NCBI RefSeq assembly: GCF_001975725.1
Contig: NZ_CP019434.1
Span: 1,506,387 to 1,570,386 of the forward strand
Length of the DNA: 64,000 bases
Reading direction: 5' to 3'
DNA from: Acidihalobacter ferrooxydans
GTDB taxonomy: Bacteria; Pseudomonadota; Gammaproteobacteria; DSM-5130; Acidihalobacteraceae
The notes below the pieces were generated by a model. It worked only from the letters and a program-made list of their open reading frames with translations. It was not told the origin of the DNA and made no database searches. The position numbers were made by a program, and so were the translations under genes. Below, in pieces: positions 7,676 to 62,308 of the stretch. Numbering within the stretch: position 1 is the first letter of the stretch; every line of letters starts with the position of its first letter.

Positions 7676-7845
7676 TTGAACCGGGATAATTCAGTAAGGA
7701 GAGGGGCTCCTTGCTTGATCTTTGAATTCACAGATTGTTTCTTCGTTCTGGGATGGCGCAACGATGCCGCCCGTTGAAGAAGATTCTTCGTGAAATCATG
7801 TCTTTGAGCAGTCATCGCCTCGTCGAGCGGATTATCTGGCCTGAA
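7676..7845. mobile_element. MITE-like element, family B copy 1 (about 170 bp)
   Basis: Starts TTGAACCGGGATAAT and ends ATTATCTGGCCTGAA, degenerate forms of the terminal repeat seen in copy 3. The interior block GAGAGGGGCTCCTTGCTTG...TCTTTGAATTCACAG... and GGCGCAACGATG is shared with copy 2 (21173-21339) in the same orientation. It is intergenic between two divergent genes, so it probably sits in or next to their promoters. An in-frame peptide is partly conserved with copy 2 but is broken in copy 3, so it is not treated as a gene. Confidence 0.75.
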
Positions 7846-21176: not shown

Positions 21177-21339
21177 TCCCCGCTCATCTGTTGGGAGAGG
21201 GGCGCTTGCTTGATCTTTGAGTCCACAGATTGCTTCTTCGCTCGGGCGTGGCGCAACGATGCAGTTCGCTGAAGAAAACTCCCTGTGAATCCAAATCTCT
21301 GTGCAACCATCACCTCGCCTTATGGACTATCCGGGTTGA
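21173..21339. mobile_element. MITE-like element, family B copy 2 (167 bp)
   Basis: Right end GGACTATCCGGGTTGA is well preserved; left end TTGATCCCCGCTC is degenerate. It shares TTGCTTGATCTTTGAGTCC...CAGATTGCTTCTTCG... and GGCGCAACGATG with copy 1, and CTCCCTGTGAATCC and ATCTCTG.GCAA.CATCA..TCGCC with copy 3. It begins at the stop codon of the EamA gene and ends just before the stop of ugpQ, between convergent genes. Confidence 0.8.
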
Positions 21340-21345
21340 TGGCGG

Positions 21346-22065
21346 TCAGCCGAGGAGTGCCGGCGGGGCGTCGGTGAACACGGCTTCCACACCCCAGTCG
21401 ATGAGTTCCTGCGCTCGCGCTCGATCATTGACCGTCCAGGCGCGCAGTGCCATGCCAGCCTCGCGCAGCATGGGCGCCAGCTGCGGGGTAATGACGGCGG
21501 CGTCCACATGCCAGGCTTCGAGTTCCAACCGTTCGCTGAGTTCCCGCCAGTTCTCCGGAAAATGCTCGGCGCCCTGGGCACGCAGGTGCTCGGGTGCCAG
21601 TTCATGCATGGCGGCAACGGTGGCGCTGGCAAAACTGGAGAGGATGAGCCGTTCGGGCAGCGCGGTGGTATGCAGCAGGGCCGCGACGGCCGCGGCGGTG
21701 TCGGTTTCGTGTGGATTGGCTGGTTTGATTTCCAGATGCAGACCGATGCCGAGTGCGCGGCAGCGTTCGAGTACGTTGTCCAGGCGCGGGATGCGTGTGC
21801 CCGCGAATTGCGCGGCGAACCAGGTGCCGGCGTCGGCAGAGGCCAGCGTCGCGTAGTCGTGTTCGCGCACGGTGCCGTGGAGGTTGGTGGTGCGCTCCAG
21901 AGTGTCGTCGTGCAGAAGCACCAGGACGCCGTCGCGGCTGAGCTGGGTATCGATCTCGACCCAGGGCAGGCCGAGGCGGGCGGCCAGTTCGATGCCGGGC
22001 AGGGTGTTTTCCGGCGCAAGGCGGGCGGTGCCGCGATGGCCGATCAAATGCTGGACGGTGAGCAT
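21346..22065 (-). CDS. ugpQ: Glycerophosphodiester phosphodiesterase
   Basis: 239 residues, GDPD family. Catalytic motifs GHRGTARLAPENT (first His), EIDTQLSRDGVLVLLHDDTLERTT (metal-binding Glu/Asp and second His) and LHLEIKPAN are intact. The C-terminal ALRAWTVNDRARAQELIDWGVEAVFTDAP is the family's usual ending. No signal peptide, so a cytosolic UgpQ-type enzyme that hydrolyses glycerophosphodiesters to glycerol 3-phosphate and an alcohol. No ugp transporter is linked. Confidence 0.94.
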   Translation of the reverse strand: MLTVQHLIGHRGTARLAPENTLPGIELAARLGLPWVEIDTQLSRDGVLVLLHDDTLERTTNLHGTVREHDYATLASADAGTWFAAQFAGTRIPRLDNVLERCRALGIGLHLEIKPANPHETDTAAAVAALLHTTALPERLILSSFASATVAAMHELAPEHLRAQGAEHFPENWRELSERLELEAWHVDAAVITPQLAPMLREAGMALRAWTVNDRARAQELIDWGVEAVFTDAPPALLG

Positions 22066-41542: not shown

Positions 41543-43069
41543 ATGCCAACACCGAGGGTTCCTATGCGAAAAATCCACGAGGTTCTGCGTCTGAAACATG
41601 ATGCGGGTTTGAGTCACGCGAAGATCGCCCGCGCGGTTGGCTTGTCCAAGGGCGCGGTATCGAAGTACATCAGTCTGACGGCGGCCCAGGGCATCGGCTG
41701 GCCAACGGCGTTGACAGAGGCACAGCTCGAAGCGCGCTTGTTTCCGGCGGCGCCGCGGGCATCGGAGCGCGTTGAGCCGGACTTTGCCGCCCTGCACACC
41801 GAGCTGAAGCGCAAGGGCGTCACGCTGCAGCTGTTGTGGTCGGAGTATGTCGCCGCCGCAGGCGACAGGGCATACCGCTACAGCCAGTACTGCCAGCTCT
41901 ATCGGGACTGGCGGGCGCGCCAGCGCCGCAGCATGCGGCAGGTCCACCGCGCCGGCGAGAAGACGTTCTTCGACTACGCCGGGCCGACCGTGCCGGTGAT
42001 CGACCCGGCCAGCGGCGAGATTCGCCGGGCACAGGTCTTCGTCGCCGTGCTGGGTGCATCGAGCTACACCTATGCCGAGGCGACCTGGACGCAGTCGCTG
42101 CCGGATTGGATCGGCAGTCACCGCCGGGCGCTGGAATTCTTTGGCGGCTCCAGCGCCCTGTGGGTGCCGGACAACCTCAAATCCGCCGTGGCGCAGGCCA
42201 GCCGCTACGATCCGACGCCCAATTCGACCTATGCCGAGATGGCCCAGCACTACGGCGCCGCCATCCTGCCCGCGCGGCCCTACAAGCCCAAGGACAAGGC
42301 CAAGGTCGAGGTCGGCGTGCAGCTGGTCGAGCGCTGGATTCTGGCCCGGCTGCGGCACCGGCGGTTTTTTTCGCTGGGTGAGCTCAACGCCGCCATCCGC
42401 ACGCTGCTCGATGCGCTCAATCACCGGCCGTTCCAGAAGCAGCCGCACAGCCGCGCCGAGCTGTTCGAGGCACTGGACAAACCGGCCCTCAAGCCGCTGC
42501 CGGCGCAAGCCTACGAGTACGCCGAGTGGCGGGTGGCCAAGCCCGGCATCGACTACCATCTGGCCATCGGCGACAAGCTCTACAGCGTCCCGCACGCCCT
42601 GGTCGGCCACAAGCTCGACGTGCGCCTGACCGCCGCAACGGTCGAGGTGTTTCACAAGGGCCACCGGGTCGCTGTGCATCCCCGCGACATCCCGGGCCGG
42701 CACGCCACCATACCCGATCACATGCCCAAGTCGCACCGCGCCCATGCGCAGTGGTCGCCCGGTCGCTTCCTGAATTGGGCTTCCGACATCGGTCCGTCAA
42801 CCCATGCCGTCGTCCGCCATCAGCTGCATGACCGGCCGCACCCCGAGCACGGTTACCGCGCCTGCCTGGGGCTGCTCAGCCATGCCCGGCGCTACGGCAA
42901 GGCCCGGCTCGAAGCCGCCTGCCGGCGGGCGCTGATGATCGGCGCGCCGACTTATCGCTCCATCACCTCGATTCTGGCCAAGGGCCTCGATCAGCAGACA
43001 CCGCACGAGACCGACGCCACCCCCTTGCCGGATCACGCCAATGTCCGCGGCGCCGGCTACTACCACTGA
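41543..43069 (+). CDS. istA: IS21-family transposase IstA
   Basis: 508 residues. N-terminal HTH ([23 protein letters not shown]), rve-type DDE core with Asp in [13 protein letters not shown], Asp in [10 protein letters not shown] and Glu in [16 protein letters not shown], then the Mu-transposase-like C-terminal segment. It cuts and joins element ends with help from IstB. Ends 11 bp before istB. Confidence 0.97.
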
Positions 43070-43080
43070 CAGGAGATTTT

Positions 43081-43836
43081 ATGCTCAATCACACCACCGT
43101 CCATCAACTCCACAGCCTCAAGCTCGCCGGCATGGCCGAGGCCCTGGCCCAGCAGCTCGATCAGCCGCATGCCTTTGAACTGGCCTTCGAAGAACGCTTG
43201 GCCTTGCTGATCGACCGCGAGATCAGCCATCGCGACACCCGCCGACTCACCCGGCTGCTGCAACTCGCCAAGCTCCGCACCCCGGCGACCATCGAGGATA
43301 TCGACTACCGCGCCGGGCGCGGCCTCAAACGCGAGGTGCTCAGCACCCTGGCCACCGGCCAGTGGATAAAGCGCCGCCACAACCTGACCATCACCGGGCC
43401 TACCGGCTGCGGCAAAACCTACATCGCCTGCGCGCTGGGCCACCAGGCCTGCCGGCAGGGTCTGTCCACCCGCTACTTTCGCCTCACCCGGCTGCTCGAA
43501 GACATCCGCATCGCCCACGGCGACGGCCGCTACGCGCGGCTGATGAAAACGCTCGCCAATACCGAACTGCTGATCCTCGACGACTTCGGCATCCACAAGC
43601 TCTCTGCCGCCCAGCGCAATGACCTGATGGAAGTCATCGAGGAGCGCCACGAGAAAAAAAGCACCCTGGTCGCCAGTCAGCTCCCCGTCGAACACTGGCA
43701 CGATGTCATCGGCGAGGCCACCCTGGCGGACGCCATCCTCGACCGCCTGCTGCACCGTGCACACCGCATCACGATGACCGGCGACTCGATGCGCAAGCGA
43801 CAAGCCGATTTGACGGATCGTGACCGAAAGGACTAA
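43081..43836 (+). CDS. istB: IS21 transposition helper ATPase IstB
   Basis: 251 residues, AAA+ ATPase of the DnaC/IstB group: Walker A ITGPTGCGKTYIACALG, Walker B ELLILDDFGIHKL, sensor KKSTLVASQLPVEHWHDVIGE. It selects the target and stimulates IstA. Translated from a start with AGGAG upstream. Confidence 0.97.
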   Translation: MLNHTTVHQLHSLKLAGMAEALAQQLDQPHAFELAFEERLALLIDREISHRDTRRLTRLLQLAKLRTPATIEDIDYRAGRGLKREVLSTLATGQWIKRRHNLTITGPTGCGKTYIACALGHQACRQGLSTRYFRLTRLLEDIRIAHGDGRYARLMKTLANTELLILDDFGIHKLSAAQRNDLMEVIEERHEKKSTLVASQLPVEHWHDVIGEATLADAILDRLLHRAHRITMTGDSMRKRQADLTDRDRKD

Positions 43837-45485: not shown

Positions 45486-46691
45486 TCCAGTTTGCGAAAC
45501 CAACCCCATAAGCGAACCGCGCGAACTTGATAAAACCTGAAGTAGCGGAGGTGTTCGACAGCCGGGTAAAGTAGGGGTAGCAAGCCCCGAGTGGGGCCAA
45601 CTATGGGGCCAACCATGATTTTTGAAAACGACAACTTCTCTGAATATCAGCAAGTTACGATGGTTTTTCGGTAGAAACCATACCACCATATTTTTCAATG
45701 ACTTAGTCGTTTTCTCCGTCGCGACTTCCCCGCCGGCGTGACCAAATCGTGACATCCGATCCAGTACGCTGACCGCGTTGCGGCTCTGCTGCGGGTTCAA
45801 ATGCGCATACTTTTCCGTGACTTGCACGGTCGTATGACGCAGCAACTCCCGCACCTCGACCAACGCCACACCGGCCTGAACCAGCCAAGCGGCGCAGGTA
45901 TGTCGCAGATCGTGGATGTGGAAGTCTTCCAAGCCCGCCTTGCTCACCGCGGTACTGAAGCTCTTCTTGACCGATTGCAGACGCTCTCCGTCTTTGTGAC
46001 AGAAGACCCACGGAGAGGTCTTGCAGTGCTTCTTACGAAAACTCGCCAGCCTGTCCTGGATTGCCATAGCCGCTTCATTGAGTGGCACCGAGACGTTGCG
46101 CTTGCCTTTGTTCTTGCCTGAGGGCAGATAGACCAGACGCTGAGCGAGATCGACCCGGTTCCATTCGAGGCGCAGAAGCTCGTCTCGCCGGCATCCGGTA
46201 TGCAGTGCCAGCTCGATGAAGTCCGCCAGGAGAGGCGCGTGCGAGTTCCCTTTGGCCGCTTGGATCAGCCTTGCCGCCTCCTTCGGTGTGATCCATCGGA
46301 CACGGTGTTCGCCCATGGGTGGTTTACGTCCCATGACCGGATTGGGGGGGTTCCATTCCCACTGACGTCGTGCATAGTTGATCGCCGCCGACAGCATGCC
46401 GAGTTCACGGCGAATGGTGCTGTCTTTGCGTCCTAAGCTGCGACGCGCTTCGATATAGCTGTGAATGTGCTTCGCGGAGTGGGTGTTCATGACAGCGCCG
46501 CTGAAATGCGGTTGCAGGATGCGGGCGATCGATAGATCTCGCTCTGCCGCGCGTTTCCAGGGCTGTGTCTCTCTCAGATAGCGCACCATCAGCTCATCGT
46601 AAGTGTGAGTGGGTTCTTCGCCCCACGTACGGATCCGGTGGGTTTCTAGCCGCCACTTGGCGAGGATCGCGGCTACTGTGGCCTGTCGAAT
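45288..46691 (-). pseudogene. Truncated second tyrosine recombinase
   Basis: The frame carries the phage-integrase catalytic set: Arg in HTGCRRDELLRLEW, HDLRHTCAAWLVQAG (His-x-x-Arg), LLRHTTVQVTEKYAHL (His and Tyr). The frame continues upstream of the first ATG (46589) with convincing integrase sequence (VAAILAKWRLETHRIRTWGEEPTHTYDEL) until a stop at 46692-46694, so the 5' end has been lost at the junction with the IS3 remnant. At the 3' end it reads on past the expected C-terminus (after about 45620) into sequence antisense to element genes, which implies that its own stop was also lost. Probably inactive. Confidence 0.85.
45591..45612. repeat. Second copy of the double GGGGCCAA motif
   Basis: This 22-bp sequence is identical to 39288-39309 (two GGGGCCAA units separated by CTAT). 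It bounds the small-gene block on the right and may be a remnant of the other attachment-site arm. Confidence 0.75.
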
Positions 46692-46710
46692 CTACGCATT
46701 CGCCCGCGCA

Positions 46711-47259
46711 GACGACTGAACAGGACAAGCCTGATCCTCTTAAACAACCGCTACGCCGTAACCAGGTGTGGTCGATCGACTTCATGCATGATCAGTTGTC
46801 AGACGGCCGGAGCTATCGCCTGTTCAATGTGATCGACGACCACCGCCGAGAGGGCTTGGCGATTGAGGCTGGCTTCTCGCTACCATCACCGCGGCTAATC
46901 CGAACGCTGGGTCAACTGATTGAGTGGCGCGGCAAACCCTCCGTCATTCGCTGTGACAATGGACCGGAGTTCATCAGTCATGAATTCATCCAGTGGGCAA
47001 AACAGCAAAAGATTCGGATTGAGTACATCCAGCCAGGCAAGCCACAGCAAAACGCCTATATTGAACGTCACAACCGAACGATTCGCTACAGCTGGCTCAG
47101 CAAACACCTCTTCGAAACATTGGAGCAAGTTCAGGATTATGCAACGCGATGGCTCTGGTTTCACAATCATGAGCGACCGCACAAAGCCAACGGCGGTCTG
47201 CCACCGCTGAAGGCGGCTTAACCTCTACTTTTGGCATCCACTGAAAAGGGAGATTACCA
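46711..47259 (+). mobile_element. IS3-family (IS407/IS51-like) transposase OrfB remnant and right end
   Basis: The frame ending at 47221 encodes the C-terminal two thirds of an rve transposase: Asp in NQVWSIDFMHDQL, Asp in IRCDNGPEFIS and Glu in QQNAYIERHNRTIRYSWL, ending NHERPHKANGGLPP. OrfA and the OrfB start are missing; the break lies between 46692 and about 46711, where integrase sequence begins on the other strand. The element's right end appears to be ...GGGAGATTACCA at 47259. The end falls two bases before the stop codon of the convergent ABC substrate-binding gene. Confidence 0.85.
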
Positions 47260-47261
47260 GA

Positions 47262-48359
47262 TCAGACTTTCCAGGGTACGCGCTTGCCGGTGGCCATTTC
47301 CCATACGCTCCATTCGGCTACGTTCTTGGCGGGCTGGGTCTTGAGCACCTTCAGTGAATTTAACAATGCGATGTTGTTGTCGAGTTCGGATTTCTCCAGC
47401 AGGCCGGCATCGCCTTTGAGGGTGGGACCAGCTTCGTAGAGCTGGGCGATGTGTGCCATCATCCAGGTTTGATGCTTGAGGCCGCTCGCCGCCTTGCCGG
47501 CACCCTTGCAGTACGGACCGCACTGTGAAAGCACCATGCTCACCGCTTCAGCCTGGTGCTTGACGGCCCAATCCCAACCCTTGAGCGAGGCGCGCAGGAG
47601 TCTGGCGCCGACTTCCTTGCCGCTAATGCCGCTGCCTTTGAAGTTGCCTTCGTTCAGCACGTTCTGTGTGGTGAACATATTGTCTTCGAGCAGATTGATG
47701 CCGTAATCGGCCAGATCGAAAATCTTTAGCGTATCCAAGGGGTAGCCCATGTTGATGATCTGGTCGACCTCGTTGTAAATCATCGCTGAGACGACCTGCG
47801 CTTTGTCGGGGAACACCAGCTTGGGATCGAAACCGTAGGTGACGAGTTTTACGTCGGGGTTGCCGACGCCGGGTTCGAGCGAGGTGGTCAGGCCGTATTT
47901 CTTGAAGAATGCCAGCGCCGGATAGGCGTTACCGCCCGGCCAGATGCCGACGGTGTGACCCTTGAAGTCGGCGGGTTTTTCGATGCCGTATTTTTTCAAA
48001 GTGGTCAGGGTGAAGCCGGATTTCTGGAAGATCTGCGCGATCTCGACTACCGGCAGGCCGCGCGAAGAGGCGGTCAGCAGGTCGGTGATCCAGGTGGTGC
48101 CGAAGTCGGCAGCCCCGGCGACTACGGTCTGGATCGGCGACTGTTCGCCGATCGGCAGCAGGGTCACGTCCAGCCCCTCGGCGGCGTAGAAGCCCTTGCC
48201 CTTGGCGACGAAGTAGCCGGCGAACTGGGCCTGCGGGAACCACTTGAGCTGCAGGCGTACGGGCACCATCCCCGCAGCGTGGCCAATGCGGGGCAGAGAC
48301 GAGCCAGCGGCGGCCAGTGTGCCGGCGCCGAGTGCTTTGAGAAAATCGCGACGTTGCAT
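47262..48359 (-). CDS. ABC transporter substrate-binding protein (NMT1/THI5-like, Tat signal)
   Basis: 365 residues. Tat signal MQRRDFLKALGAGTLAAAG, then the NMT1/SsuA-type fold beginning VRLQLKWFPQAQFAGYFVAKGKGFYAAEGLDVTLLP. ADFGTTWITDLLTASSRGLPVVEIAQIFQKSGF is the ligand-cleft segment. Family members bind pyrimidines, thiamine precursors, sulfonates or nitrate; as the last gene of a pyrimidine-degradation operon, a nucleobase or its breakdown product is the likely ligand. The gene is intact although an IS3 remnant abuts its stop. Confidence 0.92.
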   Translation of the reverse strand: MQRRDFLKALGAGTLAAAGSSLPRIGHAAGMVPVRLQLKWFPQAQFAGYFVAKGKGFYAAEGLDVTLLPIGEQSPIQTVVAGAADFGTTWITDLLTASSRGLPVVEIAQIFQKSGFTLTTLKKYGIEKPADFKGHTVGIWPGGNAYPALAFFKKYGLTTSLEPGVGNPDVKLVTYGFDPKLVFPDKAQVVSAMIYNEVDQIINMGYPLDTLKIFDLADYGINLLEDNMFTTQNVLNEGNFKGSGISGKEVGARLLRASLKGWDWAVKHQAEAVSMVLSQCGPYCKGAGKAASGLKHQTWMMAHIAQLYEAGPTLKGDAGLLEKSELDNNIALLNSLKVLKTQPAKNVAEWSVWEMATGKRVPWKV

Positions 48360-48392
48360 GGTTGTTACCCCCTCGGGTTACGGTTGAAATCC

Positions 48393-49343
48393 TTAACGCA
48401 TGGACGGGTGCCAGAATGTGAGTCTGCGTTCCAGCAGGACGATGACCGCGTACAGGGCGAGCCCGAGCACGGTCGTGTAGAGAATCGCGGCCCACACCAG
48501 CGGCATGTTGAAGACCGAGACCTCGAATTTGATGCGAAAGCCGAGCCCGACGCCGGGCGAGCCGAAGAATTCCCCGACGATGGCGCTGATCAGTGCCAGC
48601 GTCAGGTCGATCTTGAGTGCAGTGAACAAAAAGGGCAGCGCGGCGGGCAGGCGTAGCGGTGCGAAGGTGCGCAGGCCTTCGAGACCGTAGCTTCGCAGCA
48701 GGTCCAGCGCCAGCGGTGAAGCGGACTGCAGGCCGCGCACGCCGTTGATGACGGTGGGGAAGATTGTCGCGATAGCGACGATCAGCGCTTTGGATTCCCA
48801 GCCGGTGCCGGCTACGGCGACCGCCAACGGTGCCATGGCCGGCACCGGGAGGCTGGCGAATAGCACCATGTACGGCAGCAGGCCACGCTCGAAGAAGCGC
48901 ACGCGCACGATCAACACGGCAAGCGCCAGGCCGACGGCGACGCCGATCGTCATGCCACTCAGGGCTTCAAGCACGAAGGTCTGCCAGCTATCTTTGAGCA
49001 GCAGCGAGCGGTAGGTCCAGGCCGAATGGAACATTTCCAGCGGTGTCGGGATGAGCCCGCTGGGCACCCGGTAGATCGCGAGCAGGGCCTGCACGGCAGT
49101 CAGCGCGAGCAGGCCGCTGTACAGCGGCGGCAGCAGGCCGGCCAATAGGTTCTCCTTGTCGCCGCCGCGCCCGCCGGCCAGCGGGCCGATGGCCAGCGCG
49201 CCAAGTACCGCCAGTGCGAGCGCCAGCGGTCCGGCCCAGCCCGGCGCCGGCACCGACAGCGCGCCGAGCGCGAGCAGGCAGCCGAGCCACACGGCCAGTG
49301 CGAGTCGCGGCGAGCGCAGCGGAATCAGCGTCGGGGCGACCAT
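48393..49343 (-). CDS. ABC transporter permease (importer, subunit 1)
   Basis: 316 residues, about six to eight membrane helices. The BPD permease EAA loop is visible: FPTVINGVRGLQSASPLALDLLRSYGLEGLRTFAPLRLPAALPFLFTALK. The N-terminal extra hydrophobic part (APTLIPLRSPRLALAVWLGCLLALGAL) is longer than in SsuC. The start at 49343 lies within the end of the second permease gene (19-bp overlap). Works with the other permease as a heterodimer. Confidence 0.9.
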   Translation of the reverse strand: MVAPTLIPLRSPRLALAVWLGCLLALGALSVPAPGWAGPLALALAVLGALAIGPLAGGRGGDKENLLAGLLPPLYSGLLALTAVQALLAIYRVPSGLIPTPLEMFHSAWTYRSLLLKDSWQTFVLEALSGMTIGVAVGLALAVLIVRVRFFERGLLPYMVLFASLPVPAMAPLAVAVAGTGWESKALIVAIATIFPTVINGVRGLQSASPLALDLLRSYGLEGLRTFAPLRLPAALPFLFTALKIDLTLALISAIVGEFFGSPGVGLGFRIKFEVSVFNMPLVWAAILYTTVLGLALYAVIVLLERRLTFWHPSMR

Positions 49344-50193
49344 GGCGTCACCACGCGTTCGAGCAGGGAGAGCAGGGCGTACAGCGCGATGCCGAGCACG
49401 CCGGAGGCGATCATCACCACCCACAGGCCGACGATGTCGCCGGCGTAGTAACGCGCCAGCAGCATTGCGCCCAGGCCTGAGAAAGTCACTGTGGACAGTT
49501 CGGCGACGATGGCGCCGACCAGTGCGCCGGCGGCGGCGACCTTGAGGTTGGTCATGATCATCGGCAGCGCGACCGGTAGGCGCACGTGCCAGTACACGAA
49601 CCACGGCGAGGCGCAGTAGCTGCGCATCAGGTCGAGGCGCAGCGGGTCAAGGCTGGCGAGACCACGGGCGACGCCGACGGTCAGCGCGAAGAAAGCGATG
49701 TAGCCCGAGATCAGTGCCTTGGGCAGCAGCCCCTCGACGCCGAAGCGCCCGAGCAACACCACCAGCACCGGCGCCAGGGCGATGATGGGCACGTTCTGGC
49801 TGGCGACGATCCATGGCAGGGTAGCGCGCTCGAAGGGCTTGGAGAAGGCCAGCAGCGTGCCGGTGAAGAACGCCACGACCAGTGCCAACAGCAGGCCGAG
49901 CAGGGTTTCCCAGCCGGTGTAGAGCATGTTATAGAGCAGACTCGACGTGCCCCACCAGGGATGCAGCATGTTCATCGCGCCGCGGAAAAATTGCCCCGGC
50001 GCGGGCAAGATAGGATCGCTCAGCGTGCTGGCGCACGCATACAGGCCGTGGCAGCCGCCGGCAGCGAGCGCCGCTTGCGCGGCCGAGTAATTGGCGAGCA
50101 CGGTCAGCGCGGGCCACGACGCCAGCGCGCCGAGCCCGACGACCGCGACCGGCACGGCGGCGACTAGGCGTCTAGCGGGCATGGCGGACGCAC

Positions 50194-50197
<4 letters not shown>
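49325..50197 (-). CDS. ABC transporter permease (importer, subunit 2)
   Basis: 290 residues with a BPD permease domain: TLLGLLLALVVAFFTGTLLAFS, SQNVPIIALAPVLVVLLG and the EAA loop FFALTVGVARGLASLDPLRLDLMRSYCASPWFVYWHVRLPVALPMIMTNLK. Overlaps the ATPase gene by 4 bp and the next permease by 19 bp, so all transport subunits are made together. Confidence 0.92.
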
Positions 50198-53798
<3,601 letters not shown>

Positions 53799-53802
<4 letters not shown>

Positions 53803-55142
53803 GCTTCGTCCTCCCGTGCGGCGAGCCAGGCATGGATGGCGCGGGCGGCGCGTTTGCCGTCCTCGGCGGCGACGACGGTCAGGTCGTCGCCGGTGCCGAC
53901 GCAGTCGCCGCCGGCCCAGACACCGGGCAGCGGGGTTTGCAGCCTGGCGTCGACGGTGAGGCGTGCCTTGGCGTCGAGCGGCGCGCCATCGCCCAGCGGC
54001 GCGGTGTCGAGGCGCTGACCGATGGCCTTGAATACCTGGTCGGCCGGCAGGGTGAGGGTTTCGCCGGTGTCGGTCAGGCCGTTCGGGCCGGCGGCTGTGC
54101 GGGCGAAACTCACGGCTGCTGCGGCGCCGTTGTCAGCGTCGATGCGCAGCGGACGCAGCCAGTGATGGATGAACACGCCGTGGTCGCGGGCGAGTTGTTG
54201 TTCCAGCGGGCTCGCGCCCATCGTCTCAGGGCCGCGGCGGTAGCACAGGTGTACTTCCTCGGCGCCAAGCAGCCGGCTTTGCACGGCGATGTCGATGGCC
54301 GTCATGCCGCCGCCGATGACCACCACGCGACGGCCGACTTCGAGTTCCTCCAGCGGGCCTTTACGCAGTCGTTCGATGTATCGCACGGCGTCTTCCACAC
54401 CCGTCAGTGCCTCGCCCTCGATACCGAGCTCGGCGACATTCTGTAAGCCGATGCCGATAAATACAGCGTCGTGTTCACGACGCAGTTGGTTCAAAGTGAT
54501 GTGGCGGCCGAGCATGACGCCGGTGCGCAGTTCGACGTTGCCATTGCCGGTGAGATAGTCGACTTCACGCTGGACCACGTCGCCCAGCACCTTGTAGGCA
54601 GCGATGCCGTGCGCGCTCAGGCCGCCGGGGATGTCGCGGGCCTCGTACACGGTGACACGATGGCCGAGGTGCGCCAGCGTATGCGCGCAGCTCAGGCCGG
54701 CCGGGCCGGCGCCGACGACTGCGATACGGTGCCCATCGGGCGGCGGCGCATCATTGGCGATGCGCCGTCTGGCGAATTCGGCATCCATGGCATGGCGTTG
54801 AAGCTGGCCGATCTGCACCGGTCGGTCTTCCTCGGTGTGGCGCACGCAGTCGGCTTCGCACAGCGTTTCCACCGGACAGACCCGCGCGCAGACGGCGCCG
54901 ACCGGATTGGCGCGCAGGATGCGTGCGGCGGCCACGTCGGGCCGGCCACCGGCAATGGCGCGGATGAAGCCGGGAATGTCGATGCCGGTTGGGCAGGCGG
55001 CGGTGCAGGGCGCGTCGTAGCAGTAGTAGCAGCGCTCGGCCTCGATCTTCACCTCGGCCTCGCGCAGGGGCGGATGCACGGCCGCGAAACGCTGTTCAAG
55101 CGTTGCGGCGGATAGGCGTCTGGCACGTATGTCGCCGGTCAT
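53799..55142 (-). CDS. preT: NAD-dependent dihydropyrimidine dehydrogenase subunit PreT
   Basis: 447 residues, GltD-like. N-terminal Fe-S region CYYCYDAPCTAACPTGIDIPGFI and CARVCPVETLCEADCVR, FAD motif VVGAGPAGLSCAHTLAHLG and NAD motif VVVIGGGMTAIDIAVQ, ending TPLPGVWAGGDCVG. It passes electrons from NADH to PreA. The ATG at 55142 is used; the frame is open upstream into the next gene, but family similarity starts just after this Met. Confidence 0.96.
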
Positions 55143-55152
55143 GACATGCGCC

Positions 55153-56022
55153 TCACGGTTGGCACAGTTCGGAATACATATCCGGGCGGCGGTCGCGGTA
55201 GAACTGCCAGAGGTTGCGGATTTCCTCGATCTGGTCGAGATCGAGATCGTGTACCAGCAGTTCGTCCTGGTCGCGGCTGGCCTGGGCGACGATCTGGCCG
55301 CGCGGATCGGCGAAGTAGCTCTGGCCGTAGAACTCGCCGATCTCCCAGGGCTTTTCAACGCCGACGCGATTGATCGCGCCGACGAAGTAGCCGTTGGCGG
55401 CGGCGTGCGCCGGCTGCTCCAGTTTCCACAGGTACTCGGACAGTCCGGCGACGGTGGCCGAGGGGTTGAATACGATCTCCGCGCCGTTCAGGCCCAGCGC
55501 ACGGGCGCCTTCGGGAAAGTGGCGGTCGTAGCAAATATAGAGCCCAACCTTGGCGTAGGCGGTCTGGAAGACGGGGTAGCCGAGATTGCCGGGACGGAAG
55601 AAGAACTTTTCCCAGAACCCCTTGACCTGCGGAATATGTGTCTTGCGGTACTTGCCGAGGTAGCTGCCGTCGGCATCGATGATGGCGGCGGTGTTGTAGT
55701 ACAGCCCGGTCATTTCGCGTTCATAGAGCGGCACCACGATAACCATATCATGACGCTTGGCGTATTCGCGCATCAGCGCGGTGGTCTCGCCGTCGGGCAC
55801 GTATTCGGTCAGTGCGTACCACGCCGGATCCTGGCTTGGGCAGAAATAGGGTCCATAGAACAGTTCCTGAAAGCACAGGATCTTCACGCCCTGCGCGGCG
55901 GCGGCGTCGATCATCGGCAGGTGCTTGTCGAGCATGGCCTGCTTGATGGCGGCAGGGGGCATGGATTCGGCGCCTGCAGGTTGCGACATCTGAATAAGAC
56001 CGGCGCGGACGATGTTAGCCAT
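55153..56022 (-). CDS. Beta-ureidopropionase (N-carbamoyl-beta-alanine amidohydrolase)
   Basis: 289 residues, nitrilase superfamily. Catalytic Glu in LCFQELFYGPYFC, Lys in YRKTHIPQVKGFWEKFFF and Cys in GLYICYDRHFPEGAR. The residues FYGPYFC and FWEKFFFRPGN are typical of beta-alanine synthases and the related N-carbamoylputrescine amidases; the operon with preT/preA/hydA decides for the former. It hydrolyses the ureido acid to beta-alanine, CO2 and ammonia. Ten bp upstream of preT. Confidence 0.92.
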   Translation of the reverse strand: MANIVRAGLIQMSQPAGAESMPPAAIKQAMLDKHLPMIDAAAAQGVKILCFQELFYGPYFCPSQDPAWYALTEYVPDGETTALMREYAKRHDMVIVVPLYEREMTGLYYNTAAIIDADGSYLGKYRKTHIPQVKGFWEKFFFRPGNLGYPVFQTAYAKVGLYICYDRHFPEGARALGLNGAEIVFNPSATVAGLSEYLWKLEQPAHAAANGYFVGAINRVGVEKPWEIGEFYGQSYFADPRGQIVAQASRDQDELLVHDLDLDQIEEIRNLWQFYRDRRPDMYSELCQP

Positions 56023-56869
56023 AGGTCAAGTCTCCAGGAGCGAGATGGAAATACGATGGGTGAGGCAGCGATTCGTCAGCGGTGATGGCGACGGCTGACG
56101 CTTCGGGGTTGAAAGCCAGTCTAGATCTCGCATGCGGCGTACTCAACGGACACAGTGTCAAAAAAACATCCCGTGGGTATCGATTCAGGGCGGTGAGTAG
56201 ACGTCCGCCGAGTTCCGGATTCCCGCGCAGATCGCCGACGAGGTCTTCGAGCTGGGCGTAGCGGTAATAGAGGCTTTGCCGGCGCAGGCCGAGCGCGCGC
56301 GCCGCCTTGCTCATGTTGAAGTGAAGTTGCAGCAGAACGTGCAACGTTTCCATGAGGCGCAAGCGTTTTTTATCGGGTAACCGCAACAATGGTGCAAGTT
56401 CGCTACAGGCCCAGACATAGGCGTTTTCATCGCTGGCTGGTGCGTGTGCGTCCGTCCCGGGTGGGAATATAGGAGTCGTGTCTTGGGCGAATATTCTTTG
56501 CGCCAATCGATGTTCGATGGCGCTGAAACTGACTTCGCGGCGAAAAACGATCAACGGAATGCCCGATTTTTTTGCCCACTGCGGGAATAGCGAGGGGAGC
56601 TCACCGAAACTGGTAACCAGTTCGAATGCCAGCGCGCTGATGTTGCCGGCGGCGAGCGAGCGCAGGTAATGCGTCTGCGTCTGCGCGGTTGCACGGGCCA
56701 ATGACATGCCTGTAGTCAACAACAGCTCACCGCCTTCGAGCAGGTTGGCGATGTGTAGCACTTCTGCGGAATGCACCCAGCGCAAGGGACGTTGCAGGCC
56801 GTTATGTCCAGCAATCAATTCCGCATGCTGCATGCAGGGATCGGTGAGTGCATCGGCAACGCTCAACAT
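56015..56869 (-). CDS. PucR-family transcriptional regulator
   Basis: 284 residues. N-terminal PucR domain (MLSVADALTDPCMQHAELIAGHNGLQRPLRWVHSAEVLHIANLLEGGELLLTTGMSL) and C-terminal PucR-type HTH (LHVLLQLHFNMSKAARALGLRRQSLYYRYAQLEDLVG). It lacks the central GGDEF-like domain of longer members. PucR proteins regulate purine and other N-compound catabolism. It is the first gene of the operon and overlaps the beta-ureidopropionase start by 8 bp, so its own level rises with the pathway. Effector unknown; a pathway intermediate is likely. Confidence 0.9.
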   Translation of the reverse strand: MLSVADALTDPCMQHAELIAGHNGLQRPLRWVHSAEVLHIANLLEGGELLLTTGMSLARATAQTQTHYLRSLAAGNISALAFELVTSFGELPSLFPQWAKKSGIPLIVFRREVSFSAIEHRLAQRIFAQDTTPIFPPGTDAHAPASDENAYVWACSELAPLLRLPDKKRLRLMETLHVLLQLHFNMSKAARALGLRRQSLYYRYAQLEDLVGDLRGNPELGGRLLTALNRYPRDVFLTLCPLSTPHARSRLAFNPEASAVAITADESLPHPSYFHLAPGDLTYG

Positions 56870-57277
56870 AGTGATCTACGCTCCAGTCTGGCGTATTGCG
56901 CATTTAAAAAACGACTGCACGTACGAGGAAATCGATACGGCATCGGGTACGTTCCGACGGCTTCAAGTAGCGCCTTGTGGCTCAATCGACGTGTATGGTC
57001 CAAGTCGCTGCTCCAGTTGCGAACCATCGAATGTGTGAAAATAAACGCAAAAACCGTACCGTTAATTATGGTTGCTTGCGTTGAGATGTTTTTGCACGTA
57101 GGCGCAGGCATTGCACCGATCGCGGCGAACACTTGCGGAGAATTTTGTGAGTGTCGGAACCAAATCGGGGCTTTGGGGAGTGGTTGCGCACCATAGTGGT
57201 GCGTAATATCGGGTGTTACCTATGGGTACAGACCCGAAGAGAGGGGGATAACTAAGCTTGGCATAAGACCTGCCTGG

Positions 57278-57440
57278 GAGGCTTGTCGGACTCGGTGGAT
57301 CGTAGCGGGGCAGTGGGCAGAGGAGGCCGGTTTTTCGTTCTTTCAATGAAAACTAATGATAGTTCTCAAGCCGAAAAAGGATGGGTTGTGGGGCCATTCT
57401 CTCCTCGCCGCTAAATTCTTATCAAGTCCGACGGTGGCTC
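57278..57440. mobile_element. MITE-like element, family A copy 2 (163 bp)
   Basis: Left end GAGGCTTGTCGGACTCGG, right end CAAGTCCGACGGTGGCTC, both diverged forms of the 17-bp terminal repeat. In reverse complement it aligns along its whole length with copy 1 (4775-4935), sharing GCGAAAAACTGGCCTCC-like and CCCACT.GCC.CGCT.CGATCC interior blocks. No target duplication is visible. Confidence 0.75.
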
Positions 57441-57624
57441 CCGGCCGGTTGGATTGGGTGGCGAACCTATGATGAACTGTTGAAATTCCCCCAGGCGAGC
57501 GCGAGAGAAGGACTTGTGGGCTGAAAAACGCAGTTTACATGGCGTAAAAGAGTTTTTGAGCCGAATTATGATGCGCTGTCGTGTCGCATGAGTAGATTAA
57601 CGACAACGGTTTAGGGCCGCGACA

Positions 57625-57792
57625 TTGAACCCGGATAATCCATTAGGCGAGATGATGATTGCGCAGAGATGTGGATTCACAGGGAATTTGCCGAGCGTGC
57701 GGTGTAGTTGCGCTATGCCTTAACGACAAAAACTTTCTATGAATACAAAGATCAAGAAAAGGCGCCTTTTCTAAAGGAATATCCGGGTTGAA
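57625..57792. mobile_element. MITE-like element, family B copy 3 (168 bp)
   Basis: Best-preserved ends of the family: TTGAACCCGGATA (57625-57637) and TATCCGGGTTGAA (57780-57792), 12 of 13 bases complementary. Opposite orientation to copies 1 and 2; shares GGATTCACAGGGA and GGCGAGATGATGATTGCGCA with the reverse complement of copy 2. Confidence 0.85.
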
Positions 57793-57816
57793 CAATAAAA
57801 TAGGTGATGTACTGCA

Positions 57817-59223
57817 ATGGAAGACGTAATTATCGCGGCGGACTGGGTGCTGCCCATGGATCCGAGATTGCCATCTTGCATTGAGCGTGGTGCGGTCTGG
57901 TTGCGTGAGGGTCGGATTGTTGCCGTCGGCCCGCGCGACGAAGTGTTGGCGGAGCGGCGTGCGGCGGGATATACCGATCTGGTAGCTGTTGACGAGGGGC
58001 CTGGACATGTTCTGTTGCCCGGGCTGGTCAACGCGCATACGCATTTGTTTCAGAGCTATTTGCGCGGCGTGCATGACGACGCGGTGCTGGAAGAATGGTT
58101 GCGGCGGGTGATCTGGCCCTGGGTCGAGCATTTCACGCCGGAGGATTACCGTCACGCGACTTTGCTCGGCGCGTTGGAGAACCTCCGTTCGGGGGTGACG
58201 ACCGTGGCCGAACACGCCTACATGACCGGCGGCATGGAAACGGTCGAAGCCGTTGTCGATGCTTTTGCCGAGAGCGGGTTGCGCGGACAGATCGCCTACG
58301 GATTCGCCGACCAGAATTACCCGCACATGCTGCGCGAGACGGTCGACAGCGTGCTAGCCAAGCTCGACCACCTACGTGCGCAGGTTGCGCCGCACGCCGG
58401 AATGCTGAAAGCGGGAGTCGGACCGAACACGTTGTGGGGCGTATCTGGGCCGCTTTACCGCATTGCGGGTGAATACGCCGCCGAGCATGGTTTGCCGATG
58501 CACTGCCACGTCGCCGAAACGCAACTGGAAGTCGAATACACGCTTCAACACTACGGGCGCCGCAACGTCGAGACGCTGGCCGAGTGGGGCTTATTGCGCA
58601 CGGGGATGCAGATGGTGCATTGCGTGTGGCTGGAGGGGAGCGAGGTCGCTCTAGCCGCTGGCAGTGGAGCCGTCATGATGCACTGTCCGACCTCGAACAT
58701 GTATCTGGCTTCCGGCGCGGCGCCGGCCTGGGAAGCGCAGCAGCAGGGCATGCCGGTCGTGCTAGGCACCGATGGCCCGGCCAGCAACAACAGCCAGGAC
58801 ATGCTGGAAACGCTGAAGATGGCGGCCTGTCTGGCTAAGGTCACGCGGCTGGACCCGACCGTCATGCCTGCGCGTGACTTATTGCACATGGCGACACTGG
58901 GGGCTGCCGAGCAGCTCGGCCTGGGTGATCGCTGCGGCAGCCTGACGCCGGGCAAGGTGGCCGATCTCACGCGTGTCGACCTTCGCGGCCTGCATTGCAT
59001 GCCCGTGCACGACCCGGCGTCCAGCCTCGTCTACAACGCACAGATCGGGGACGTAAGCGATGTGTGGGTCGAGGGACGACAGCTCCTGCGCGGCGGCGAG
59101 GGCGTGCACCACGACTTTGCTGCGGAGGCGGCGCGAGCCCAAGCGCGCATCCATGTCTTGCAACCTGTCATCAGGCCCTGGGACGACGTGCGCCTGAAAC
59201 AGGAAGGGCTGTCCGCCGCCTGA
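57817..59223 (+). CDS. ATZ/TRZ-type aminohydrolase (nucleobase or SAH/MTA deaminase-like)
   Basis: 468 residues, amidohydrolase superfamily. Metal ligands: HTHLFQSYLRG (two His), HCHVAET (His) and GTDGPASNNSQDML (Asp); the motif TDGxASNN is shared by SAH/MTA deaminases, atrazine chlorohydrolase types and guanine-type deaminases. N-terminal IIAADWVLPMDP...LREGRIVAVGP is the usual composite beta-sandwich. It deaminates an N-heterocycle in the cytosol; the exact substrate is not decidable. Divergent from the pyrimidine operon and 134 bp before a Rieske oxygenase, which suggests a shared catabolic route. Confidence 0.88.
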   Translation: MEDVIIAADWVLPMDPRLPSCIERGAVWLREGRIVAVGPRDEVLAERRAAGYTDLVAVDEGPGHVLLPGLVNAHTHLFQSYLRGVHDDAVLEEWLRRVIWPWVEHFTPEDYRHATLLGALENLRSGVTTVAEHAYMTGGMETVEAVVDAFAESGLRGQIAYGFADQNYPHMLRETVDSVLAKLDHLRAQVAPHAGMLKAGVGPNTLWGVSGPLYRIAGEYAAEHGLPMHCHVAETQLEVEYTLQHYGRRNVETLAEWGLLRTGMQMVHCVWLEGSEVALAAGSGAVMMHCPTSNMYLASGAAPAWEAQQQGMPVVLGTDGPASNNSQDMLETLKMAACLAKVTRLDPTVMPARDLLHMATLGAAEQLGLGDRCGSLTPGKVADLTRVDLRGLHCMPVHDPASSLVYNAQIGDVSDVWVEGRQLLRGGEGVHHDFAAEAARAQARIHVLQPVIRPWDDVRLKQEGLSAA

Positions 59224-59357
59224 CCCTGCGGCTGCAGCGCTGTGTTGCGGTGGCCGCGTAGCGGCGTGGCATCGATCTTGCGATAGTACACACGGGAATT
59301 GCTCGAAGGCGTCACTCCTGACATGCCGGGGCAATCACCCGCTGAAGGAGATTCACC

Positions 59358-60419
59358 ATGCTCGTCACCCATCAACCCGTCCTGCGACGCTTCTGGTATC
59401 CCGTTCTGCCTCTCGAACAACTCGATCCCGGCCCCGTGCCGTTCACCCTGCTCGGCGAGCGCATTGTGCTGTGGCGGGGTGCCGACGGCGTGCCCGCCGC
59501 GTTGGCCGACCGTTGCTGCCACCGCACCGCACAGCTCTCCAAGGGCTGGGTCACGGAAGCCGGCGAACTGCAGTGCGGCTACCACGGCTGGACCTTCGAT
59601 CGCTGCGGCCAATGCGTGCACATCCCGCAGCAGCCGGACCTGCCGCCGCGCGGGCAGGTTGCCTCGTATCGCTGCGAGGCGCGTTATGGCTACGTCTGGG
59701 TCTGTCTGGACGAGCCCCTGACCGAACTGCCGGACTTCCCCGAAGCACGCGAGGACGGCTACCGCCAGATCGACGAGTTCTACGAACCCTGGGCCTGCGC
59801 CGGCCTGCGCGTGATGGAAAACTCCTTCGACAATGCGCATTTCAGCTTCGTGCACCGCGCCACCTTCGGCCTGTCCGACAACCCCAGGCCGGCCGAACTC
59901 AAGATCACGCCGGCCGAGTACGGCTTCGTCATGCGTGCGGTTGCGCCGGTGCGCAATCCCGAGTTGCAGAAGGAACTGCTGCAGATGGCTGACGAGCGTA
60001 CCGAGCGCCACATGGAAAGCCGCTGGTTCATGCCCTTCGTGCGCAAGCTGCGCATCGCCTATCCGAACGGGGTGGTGCACTCCATCGTCACCGCCGCCAC
60101 GCCCATCGACGACCGCCACTCGCAGATCGTGCAATGGGCTTGGCGCAACGATAGCGAGGCAGATGCGCCGGCGGCCAAAGTCATCGCCTTCGACCGTCAG
60201 GTGACCGAGGAAGACCGCGCGATCCTCGAAACCACGGATTTCGACGTGCCGCTAGACGCGGCCGGCGGCGAGAGCCACATGCCTAGTGACAAACCCGGTC
60301 TCGTCATGCGCCAACAGCTGCGGGAACTGCTGGCCGCCCACGGCGAACGCGAAGTGCGGCGCAGCGACGCACCGCGCGGACAGGCCGTCACTCTGCTGCG
60401 CAAGATGTCCGGTGAGTGA
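59358..60419 (+). CDS. Rieske-type non-haem iron oxygenase, alpha subunit
   Basis: 353 residues. Rieske centre C53-x-H55 (DRCCHRTAQL) and C73-x2-H76 (LQCGYHGWTF); mononuclear iron triad in NSFDNAHFSFVHRATF (H161, H166 and a C-terminal Asp), with bridging Asp158. Length and layout match the O-demethylase/N-demethylase group (VanA, NdmA/NdmB). No reductase or ferredoxin partner lies in the window, so electrons must come from elsewhere. Lying between two aminohydrolase genes, it may oxidise or N-demethylate a purine- or pyrimidine-like ring; this is inference from context. Confidence 0.9.
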   Translation: MLVTHQPVLRRFWYPVLPLEQLDPGPVPFTLLGERIVLWRGADGVPAALADRCCHRTAQLSKGWVTEAGELQCGYHGWTFDRCGQCVHIPQQPDLPPRGQVASYRCEARYGYVWVCLDEPLTELPDFPEAREDGYRQIDEFYEPWACAGLRVMENSFDNAHFSFVHRATFGLSDNPRPAELKITPAEYGFVMRAVAPVRNPELQKELLQMADERTERHMESRWFMPFVRKLRIAYPNGVVHSIVTAATPIDDRHSQIVQWAWRNDSEADAPAAKVIAFDRQVTEEDRAILETTDFDVPLDAAGGESHMPSDKPGLVMRQQLRELLAAHGEREVRRSDAPRGQAVTLLRKMSGE

Positions 60420-61085
60420 AGCCCTGCTGTGCGGCGCTGAAGCCGTGCTGACCGGACTGTCCGGCGCAGCAGAGTGACGGCCGCATCGCCGAGCTGGGGC
60501 AAATCTCATGCCGGAAGCCGGCGAACGCGTGCTCGACGCCTCCGGCTGCGTGGTCAATCCCGGCTGGGTGAACACCTACCACCACCTGTTCCAGAGCCTG
60601 CTCGACGCCGTGCCCGAAGGGCTCGACCAGCCGCTGATGGGCTGGTTGGCAGCGGTGCCGTTTCGCTTTCAGGGCCGCTTCGATCCCGAACTGCTGGAGA
60701 CCGCCGCGGCCATCGACGCACATGATGTCCGAGACGCGCCCGGCCTGGCTGGTACACCGCGCCGTCGGCGGCGCGCAGGCCGCCACGGTCGAAGACGTGG
60801 TGCATTGGGGCACCCGCGGCGGCGCCCGCATGCCTGGTCTGGACGCGGTCGGCACGCTGGAGGTCGGCATGGCCGCCGATCTGGCCGTCTACGAGCTGTC
60901 GCACCCGCGCTACTTCGGCCAGTTCCAGCCGGCGCTGGCGCCGGTGCTGGGCGGAGGTGCGCCGGTGATGCGGTCTGTACTGGCCGGGGGCGCGTGGTGG
61001 CGGGAACGGTGTGATCCCCTGGCTCGACATGCAAGTGCTGCGTATCAGTGCGGCGAAAGGCGTGGCGTGGTTGCGGGTTGCTTGA
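60412..61085 (+). pseudogene. Decayed aminohydrolase, 8-oxoguanine-deaminase/AtzB-like
   Basis: Pieces of one gene in different frames: EALLCGAEAVLTG (from GTG 60412), DGRIAELGQIS (60475-60507, other frame), then EAGERVLDASGCVVNPGWVNTYHHLFQSLLDAVPEGLDQPLMGWL (to about 60720), then WLVHRAVGGAQAATVEDVVHWGTRGGARMPGLDAVGTLEVGMAADLAVYELSHPRYFG (another frame) and finally VIPWLDMQVLRISAAKGVAWLRVA, stop at 61085. At least three frameshifts or stops, and the central half with the HxH partner His and catalytic Asp is deleted. The metal motif also reads HHLF. Its GTG overlapped the oxygenase stop, so it was once in the same operon. Confidence 0.85.
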
Positions 61086-61555
61086 GCGGTGTTCGTGCGC
61101 GTGTGCTTTTCTCTCGGATTATCAATCGTTTTGATCCGTACAGCGGATGAGACACTAACGTATGAATCATTGAAACCAAGCTTTCCAGACCGTTGATTCT
61201 TTTCTCGTGCTCGCTTGAGCGACAAAGGCCTTGCTGGCGAACCATTCGGGTGACTGCGGGTTACGAATCAGGTGCTGCAATCGTGGCTCGTCACGCACAT
61301 GCACCTGGGCGCGGCCTGTGGGTGACGGGCGCGGATTTGTGCGCAGAATTTGTGCCCATAAAAACAAGGCGCTGGCTTCGCTGGATGTCTATTGCAAAGA
61401 GGTCATCGAATTGAGCGGCGGCGCTGTTATCATACCGACCGTGGTTGATAAACTCCGTAGACACTGCCGAGAATAAACAATGACCCCGATTCGCCCTGAC
61501 GCAGCATCGAATGTTTTTGCAACAAGGGTCAATCTGCCATAGAGGCCGCCGGTCG
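61086..61555. other. Intergenic region without recognisable features
   Basis: About 470 bp between the pseudogene and the sulfotransferase gene. Short frames exist, but none has a domain or start signal I trust. It must contain the promoter of the sulfotransferase gene. Confidence 0.5.
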
Positions 61556-62308
61556 ATGAAAAACTGCCTGATTCTTGGTTGCGGTCGCAGTGGCACCAGT
61601 ATGCTGACCGGCACGCTGGCGCGTGCCGGTTATTACATGGGCGATTGGTTGTATCGGCCCAATGCAGCCAATCCCAAGGGATTTTTCGAGTCCTACACGG
61701 TCAATTCGATCAACGAACGCCTGCTGACGCGCGTTTCTCCGGCGTCGCGCAGCCGCTCGCTTCTCAAGCGACTCTGGCGCACGAGTTTCCCGTCCGAGCG
61801 TTGGCTCATACGTCTGCCGGTTCATACACCGATCGAAGGCGATGCCCGTTCTCTGCGGCGCATCAGTCGGCTGGTCTCGAAGGCGCCCTTTGCCTATAAA
61901 GATCCACGTTTTTGCTACACCCTCGACGCCTGGCGCGACCGGCTGCCCGATGACACGGTATTCCTGTGCATATTCCGTGAACCCGGGCGCACCGTGCAAA
62001 GCATGCTCAAGGAACACCAGCGCGTGTATTCCGATTTGCCGTTCAGCACCGATGATGCCTTCGGGGTATGGAATGATATGTACCGGCATATTCTGGAGCG
62101 CCATCGGCATCAGGGCGACTGGCTGTTCATCCATTTCGATCAGATGCTTGACGGATCGAAGGCCGAAGCAATCGAAAGCCTGTTGAACACGCGCATCGAC
62201 CGCGATTTTCCTGACCGTCGCCTCCAGCGGTCCGCACCCGGGGCGACCCCGGATTATGCGCTGGAGACCTACCGGGAATTGTGCCGCCTGGCCGGTTACG
62301 AAGCTTGA
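61556..62308 (+). CDS. Sulfotransferase-family protein
   Basis: 250 residues. PAPS-binding 5' loop CLILGCGRSGTSMLTGTLARAGYYMG at the N-terminus and 3' phosphate motif FLCIFREPGRTVQSMLKEH in the middle; KAPFAYKDPRFCYTLDAWRDRLP precedes it. This fits the PF13469-like sulfotransferases that modify glycans or lipids from cytosolic PAPS. The ATG at 61556 gives the expected start. The stop overlaps a possible start of the following membrane protein, so they are probably co-expressed; a sulfated envelope lipid or glycan is a reasonable guess. Confidence 0.82.
   Translation: MKNCLILGCGRSGTSMLTGTLARAGYYMGDWLYRPNAANPKGFFESYTVNSINERLLTRVSPASRSRSLLKRLWRTSFPSERWLIRLPVHTPIEGDARSLRRISRLVSKAPFAYKDPRFCYTLDAWRDRLPDDTVFLCIFREPGRTVQSMLKEHQRVYSDLPFSTDDAFGVWNDMYRHILERHRHQGDWLFIHFDQMLDGSKAEAIESLLNTRIDRDFPDRRLQRSAPGATPDYALETYRELCRLAGYEA

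Follow-up and report, generated by a model that had tools for sequence, protein, structure and literature searches.

Introduction

The closest described system to the locus reported here is the xanthine (NMT1-motif) riboswitch regulon of Yu and Breaker (2020; PMC7373994), which includes Rieske oxygenase, PRK12393 and TadA-like genes. The sections of that paper on which we draw report that the riboswitch binds xanthine and urate and turns expression off, that it rejects methylated xanthines, that the linked oxygenases are related to HpxD/HpxE, and that the linked NMT1 genes are distinct from thiamine genes; in the same sections, the precise functions of the dioxygenases are not established. Since the regulon is described there and the functions of the dioxygenases are not, the association between Rieske oxygenases and the riboswitch is already known, whereas the reaction of the oxygenase is not. 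Here, we analyse a Rieske oxygenase gene of Acidihalobacter ferrooxydans that lies in a stretch of 64,000 nucleotides (the window; C1:1506387-1570386, in a host genome that is a single contig of 3.45 Mb). We lean slightly towards reading this gene as the surviving half of a duplicated Rieske-PRK12393 pair whose product would oxidise oxopurine- or pterin-type rings on a route ending in xanthine or urate. We favour such a purine/pterin-type reading because of the reciprocal decay of the pair, the linkage of Rieske and PRK12393 genes in other genomes, the riboswitch, the cytidine deaminase (CDA)-fold deaminases found near relatives of the gene, and the NdmA/SxtT-like fold.

A Rieske oxygenase resembling NdmA and SxtT

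An intact amidohydrolase gene, an intact Rieske gene and a broken deaminase gene lie together, divergent from a reductive pyrimidine operon. A sequence-only reading of the window had proposed this arrangement, and open reading frames (ORFs), Pfam matches and alignments bear it out:

57817..59223, plus strand: ATZ/TRZ-type amidohydrolase, 468 aa, orphan (PF01979, E 4e-63)
59358..60419, plus strand: Rieske non-heme iron oxygenase, NdmA/SxtT type, 353 aa (PF00355, E 8e-23; PF19112 VanA_C, E 3e-16)
60412..60715, plus strand: decayed PRK12393-type deaminase, 5' part, with a GTG start, an internal stop and small deletions
60713..61100, plus strand: decayed deaminase, 3' part, 88.9% identical in nucleotides to positions 14777-15169 of locus L084 of the same genome

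The Rieske protein scored above the cut-off for both PF00355 and PF19112. Its 2Fe-2S ligands C53, H55, C73 and H76 (CxH...CxxH) and its iron-site positions D158, H161, H166 and D286 (D-x2-H-x4-H plus Asp) are conserved without exception among the aligned homologues (26/26), and the presence of both ligand motifs places it among the VanA/NdmA-type Rieske non-heme iron oxygenases. An AlphaFold2 model from 26 homologues (predicted local distance difference test score 91.9) found its best solved fold in NdmA (Z 34.4, root-mean-square deviation 2.0, 312 aligned residues, 31% identity), followed by SxtT (Z 34.2) and GxtA (Z 33.8), with dicamba monooxygenase (Z 31.8) and guaiacol demethylase (Z 30.3) ranked lower; folds missing from the VIA-align list were not taken as evidence. 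As both the sequence and the modelled fold are nearest to NdmA/NdmB and SxtT/GxtA, whose substrates have purine-like bicyclic rings, the substrate is likely an N-heterocycle, which agrees with the earlier suggestion of an NdmA-sized oxygenase for compounds of that class. Similarity to VanA was confined to the shared C-terminal domain PF19112, and the nearest folds do not indicate vanillate or another aromatic acid as the substrate.

With NdmA as the best solved fold, the enzyme could be a methylxanthine-type (NdmA/NdmB-like) N-demethylase for a methylated purine or pterin, but we consider this quite unlikely. In NdmA, the residue in which the solved QL mutant differs (Gln for Asn) corresponds to Asp279 of the window protein, and this Asp is invariant in 26/26 homologues. 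We take the Asn/Gln position of NdmA and NdmB, identified by comparing wild type and QL mutant, to be a substrate contact, and the Asp found there instead argues for a substrate contact different from that of NdmA. No Ndm cluster was seen, and the reported rejection of methylated xanthines by the riboswitch speaks against such a substrate.

Reciprocal decay of an oxygenase-deaminase pair

In the window, the Rieske gene and the decayed deaminase gene overlap by 8 nt at the Rieske stop and the GTG start; the deaminase gene has lost ~660 bp from its middle, and its reading frames are broken. A genome search for the Rieske protein turned up one additional match, a C-terminal fragment 30 kb downstream, in L084. 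There, the last ~51 residues of a Rieske protein are encoded directly 5' of an intact PRK12393-type deaminase gene (L084 13783-15156), and the overlapping junction of Rieske stop and deaminase start is common to both copies. Window positions 60264-60715 are 80.6% identical in nucleotides to L084 13633-14116; since both remnant alignments to L084 reached E 1e-130 or better, the likeness is not due to chance. Because the intact L084 paralogue adjoins a Rieske fragment and the window copy is the reverse, the two loci are best read as one duplicated Rieske-deaminase pair in which each copy lost a different half. The pair still at work probably consists of the window oxygenase and the L084 deaminase, whose cooperation we infer.

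The intact paralogue scored 704 against PRK12393/NF009059 (cut-off 543), which makes it a member of that family. The sequence-only reading had assigned the third gene to the 8-oxoguanine deaminase type; a link between the oxygenase and an 8-oxoguanine-deaminase-like enzyme held up, but a true 8-oxoguanine deaminase (PRK08203) was rejected, as the paralogue scored 426 against a cut-off of 532.

The cluster containing this paralogue (L084 2806-20000) also encodes an NMT1 ATP-binding cassette (ABC) transporter, a second NMT1 binding protein, a creatininase-family protein, an NCS1 permease, two 2-oxoglutarate/iron (2OG-Fe)-type proteins, a member of a cytosine-deaminase subfamily, a cupin, a CocE-type hydrolase and a FAD_binding_4 protein.

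Relatives of the oxygenase gene and their neighbours

Scanning genome contigs for the Rieske gene confirmed 269 candidate stretches, from which 80 loci were retained. Neighbourhood counts are of tblastn matches in DNA up to 10 kb on each side; automatic ORF clustering, which gave many wrong-frame ORFs at high-GC loci, was excluded from them. By their titles, 52 of the 80 loci are from Variovorax, and the counts mirror lineage rather than independent events. Homologues reach ~61% identity in Elioraea and Roseomonas and otherwise come mostly from Variovorax and other Burkholderiales (~50%). Outside Proteobacteria, homologues of 53-57% identity occur at L007, L080 (Opitutaceae) and L008 (a cyanobacterial Microcoleus metagenome-assembled genome), which suggests wide transfer or, for the single metagenome-assembled genome, a binning error. 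In the class of the host, the Rieske gene was present in 2 of 369 genomes at E<=1e-50 and the window amidohydrolase, at E<=1e-100, in the host alone (1/369); in its family, either gene was found in one of five genomes, again the host. Horizontal arrival is likely, given how rare both genes are in family and class.

PRK12393-type genes were found in 11 of 398 genomes of the phylum, the host included. In four of the ten others (L103, L107, L109 and L110), a Rieske gene lies within ~5 kb, and at L103 the two genes stand in the same order as in the window, with Rieske stop and deaminase start overlapping in GTGA. The cluster of this pair at L103 also holds a second Rieske oxygenase gene (L103 12727-13707), whose product is 47% identical to the window protein.

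Across the 80 loci, a CDA-fold deaminase gene lies <=3 kb from the Rieske gene in 63, and an NMT1-type binding protein or permease gene is present in 64. Thiamine or hydroxymethylpyrimidine degradation, hinted at by the NMT1/THI5-like binding proteins, was dropped as an explanation because the riboswitch-linked NMT1 genes are described as distinct from thiamine genes. Gene names also brought cytokinin, creatinine and riboflavin degradation into view as conceivable readings. At least two of the genes for CodA-like deaminase, RidA, creatininase and FAD_binding_4 proteins, families of the pterin-deaminase clusters considered below, flank the Rieske gene in 8/80 loci.

The xanthine aptamer upstream of Rieske and deaminase genes

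A search of 56 genomes for RF03054, the xanthine aptamer, gave matches in 34; the controls gave none (0/14). Of the 44 genomes that carry the Rieske gene, 26 had a match, and in 25 the aptamer ends 22-72 bp before the start of the Rieske match on the same strand. This position directly 5' of the Rieske gene was seen in 17/17 genomes of Variovorax and one close relative and in 8/27 non-Variovorax genomes. Comparison of coordinates also placed RF03054 immediately 5' of PRK12393, or of the operon containing it, in G623, G644, G716, G740 and G771. Besides its PRK12393 gene under the aptamer, G771 encodes an HTHLFQ-type amidohydrolase (L133 1435-2880) that is 35% identical to the window amidohydrolase.

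The window amidohydrolase and the pyrimidine operon

The amidohydrolase has metal and catalytic positions (H74, H76, H231, E234, H268 and D319) that are invariant in a 7-sequence alignment, as well as an HTHLFQ motif, and is a candidate amino-heterocycle deaminase. The solved chains nearest to it are methylthioadenosine/S-adenosylhomocysteine deaminases, e.g. 4f0r. It scored 335 against the TRZ/ATZ hydrolase PRK09045 and 248 against the 8-oxoguanine deaminase PRK08203, below the respective cut-offs of 540 and 532. The gene lies between the Rieske gene and the following features:

47262-56869, minus strand: reductive pyrimidine operon (NMT1-type ABC transporter, dihydropyrimidinase, PreA, PreT, carbon-nitrogen hydrolase, PucR-type regulator)
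57628..57766, minus strand: dispersed intergenic repeat, directly 5' of the amidohydrolase gene, 75.7% identical to window 21181-21350

The operon is real: its dihydropyrimidinase scored 588 bits against TIGR02033 (cut-off 393) and its PreA 675 against NF006183 (cut-off 335). In the route proposed earlier, a base would be deaminated by the amidohydrolase and oxidised or demethylated by the Rieske enzyme before passing into the adjacent reductive pathway. The adjacency and divergent orientation of the two gene sets in this genome, with a PucR-type regulator between them, speak for such a route, but we judge it very unlikely. PreA or PreT was found in 0/80 Rieske loci and a dihydropyrimidinase-like match in 4/80, which leaves the proposed feeding of the pyrimidine pathway without conserved linkage. 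Nor does the amidohydrolase-Rieske pair behave as a conserved unit: relatives of the amidohydrolase at E<=1e-80 were found in 0/44 Rieske-carrying genomes, and its best match outside the host was only 38% identical (398 phylum genomes). The search for the gene set in other genomes returned the Rieske-PRK12393 linkage described above and no instance of the amidohydrolase-Rieske pair. What does recur without pyrimidine genes is the Rieske gene alone, accompanied by purine/pterin-type genes (deaminases), transporters and the xanthine riboswitch.

Further copies of the repeat, ~50-170 bp long and 70-91% alike, occur at window 7698-7822 and in L083, L084 and L130; it is possibly a small mobile element. 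Two ORFs at window 41543-43833 resemble, as judged by eye, an IS21-type transposase and helper pair.

Evidence on a possible pterin-type substrate and the proposed route

The nearest solved relative of the intact L084 deaminase is PDB 2paj (E 4e-146, over residues 4-456 of 457), which we take to be an isoxanthopterin deaminase, an assignment of activity said to be that of Hall et al. 2010a. By its sequence proximity to 2paj, the PRK12393 paralogue may be isoxanthopterin-deaminase-like. Environmental enzymes of the 8-oxoguanine deaminase family act on isoxanthopterin and pterin-6-carboxylate, according to the relevant section of PMC5270733, and a part of PMC9513972 describes the Variovorax F1 pterin deaminase as a protein of 399 residues whose gene is followed by one for an endoribonuclease. 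This description is matched by a CodA-like gene of V. paradoxus NBRC 15149, which has exactly 399 codons and directly precedes a RidA gene, with which it overlaps. Beside it lie genes for a permease, a Fer2 reductase and Flavodoxin_2, NMT1 and FAD_binding_4 proteins. A Fer2/NAD reductase gene is present at L129 8977-10005. The L084 cluster shares the NMT1 ABC, creatininase, Flavodoxin_2 and FAD_binding_4 families, but its cytosine deaminase differs, being of the PRK07572 type.

Under the purine/pterin-type reading, an oxidised bicyclic N-heterocycle (pterin/isoxanthopterin or oxopurine) would be imported and would lose its 2-amino group to a deaminase. This enzyme would be PRK12393 in the present genome and one of the CDA fold in the majority of relatives, possibly assisted by the window amidohydrolase. 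The Rieske enzyme, drawing electrons from a separate reductase, would then hydroxylate the ring. The route would end in xanthine or urate, whose build-up would shut the genes off through the riboswitch in many relatives, though not in this genome. As substrate class we favour pteridines, with C6/C7 hydroxylation of deaminated isoxanthopterin, and the pyrimidine operon would be a neighbour and not a partner. More tentatively still, and with considerable doubt, the whole xanthine-riboswitch regulon might serve pteridine catabolism: deamination of pterin or isoxanthopterin, Rieske hydroxylation to 2,4,6,7-tetrahydroxypteridine, contraction to xanthine-8-carboxylate and decarboxylation to the repressing xanthine, with creatininase, cupin or flavin adenine dinucleotide (FAD) proteins from the cluster supplying missing steps. 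The isoxanthopterin pathway is reportedly due to McNutt; the ring contraction to xanthine-8-carboxylate is presumably EC 5.5.1.3, an enzyme for which we know of no gene.

Plain purine oxidation of the Hpx kind, in which the Rieske enzyme would hydroxylate hypoxanthine, xanthine or oxoguanine, as proposed for Klebsiella HpxD, and no pterin would be involved, is possible though somewhat doubtful. It would account for the tie drawn between riboswitch-linked oxygenases and HpxD/HpxE in the portion of PMC7373994 cited above, for xanthine and urate as riboswitch ligands, and for the fact that the Rieske-deaminase pair of G589 has urate oxidase and hydroxyisourate hydrolase genes in its vicinity, a finding that also speaks for the purine/pterin-type reading. 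However, PRK12393 would then be redundant in G589, where a PRK08203 8-oxoguanine deaminase and a guanine-deaminase-like protein are encoded separately, and the host has a xanthine-dehydrogenase-like gene of its own, albeit below every specific cut-off. The likeness to HpxD comes from the published description.

Several observations weigh against the purine/pterin-type reading or its pterin version. The function of all these oxygenases is a prediction. PRK12393 was present in only 2/44 Rieske-carrying genomes; for this reason, the partner deaminase seems to vary, a CDA-fold enzyme replacing PRK12393 in most relatives. RF03054 gave 0 matches in the host genome under the stricter filters applied above 40 genomes, and there was no RF03054 hit in window 46000-62000, where all Rfam matches at E up to 5 were sub-threshold. 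The ligands xanthine and urate suit plain purine oxidation equally well. A pterin-deaminase-type gene was not found in the host at E<=1e-40, and V. paradoxus NBRC 15149 carries its Rieske gene on another contig than its pterin-deaminase cluster. Finally, Variovorax F1 extracts hardly degraded deaminopteroic acid, as stated in the part of PMC9513972 used here.

Discussion

The analysis links an unassigned family of Rieske oxygenases with the xanthine riboswitch as well as with deaminases of the pterin type. If the pterin version is true, these would be candidate genes for the bacterial pteridine-to-xanthine route, an orphan pathway that, to our knowledge, is known only from 1960s enzymology. 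Deamination followed by ring hydroxylation would also offer an answer to a question that Yu and Breaker left, namely why genes acting before xanthine are governed by a xanthine OFF switch. The view that no such route has been demonstrated stood up: our literature search, which left subscription literature largely outside and so does not imply absence from print, found no described Rieske/pterin or Rieske/purine route beyond the riboswitch regulon (PMC7373994, as far as the sections cited go).

Compared with known systems, the window enzyme shares fold, size, Rieske and iron ligands with the methylxanthine N-demethylases NdmA/NdmB, but is only ~31% identical, has an invariant Asp in place of the substrate-side Asn/Gln and stands in another gene context. 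It is equally similar in structure (Z ~34) to SxtT/GxtA (SxtDIOX), the Rieske hydroxylases of saxitoxin biosynthesis, at ~30% identity, although the neighbourhood here is catabolic and not biosynthetic. The intact L084 paralogue matches the 2paj deaminase over nearly its full length, whereas the window copy is broken. With the Variovorax pterin deaminase clusters, as far as described in the part of PMC9513972 drawn on, the common elements are creatininase, Flavodoxin_2, an NMT1 ABC transporter, FAD_binding_4 and RidA; the deaminase type itself was not found in the host, and the V. paradoxus cluster has no adjoining Rieske gene. The xanthine riboswitch regulon, as set out in the cited sections of PMC7373994, likewise combines Rieske (hcaE), PRK12393, TadA-like, 2OG-Fe (pcbC) and NMT1 transporter genes, and relatives of the window Rieske gene carry its aptamer. 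The host genome differs in being without the aptamer, and in that its Rieske gene has been relocated beside a pyrimidine operon and an unrelated amidohydrolase gene.

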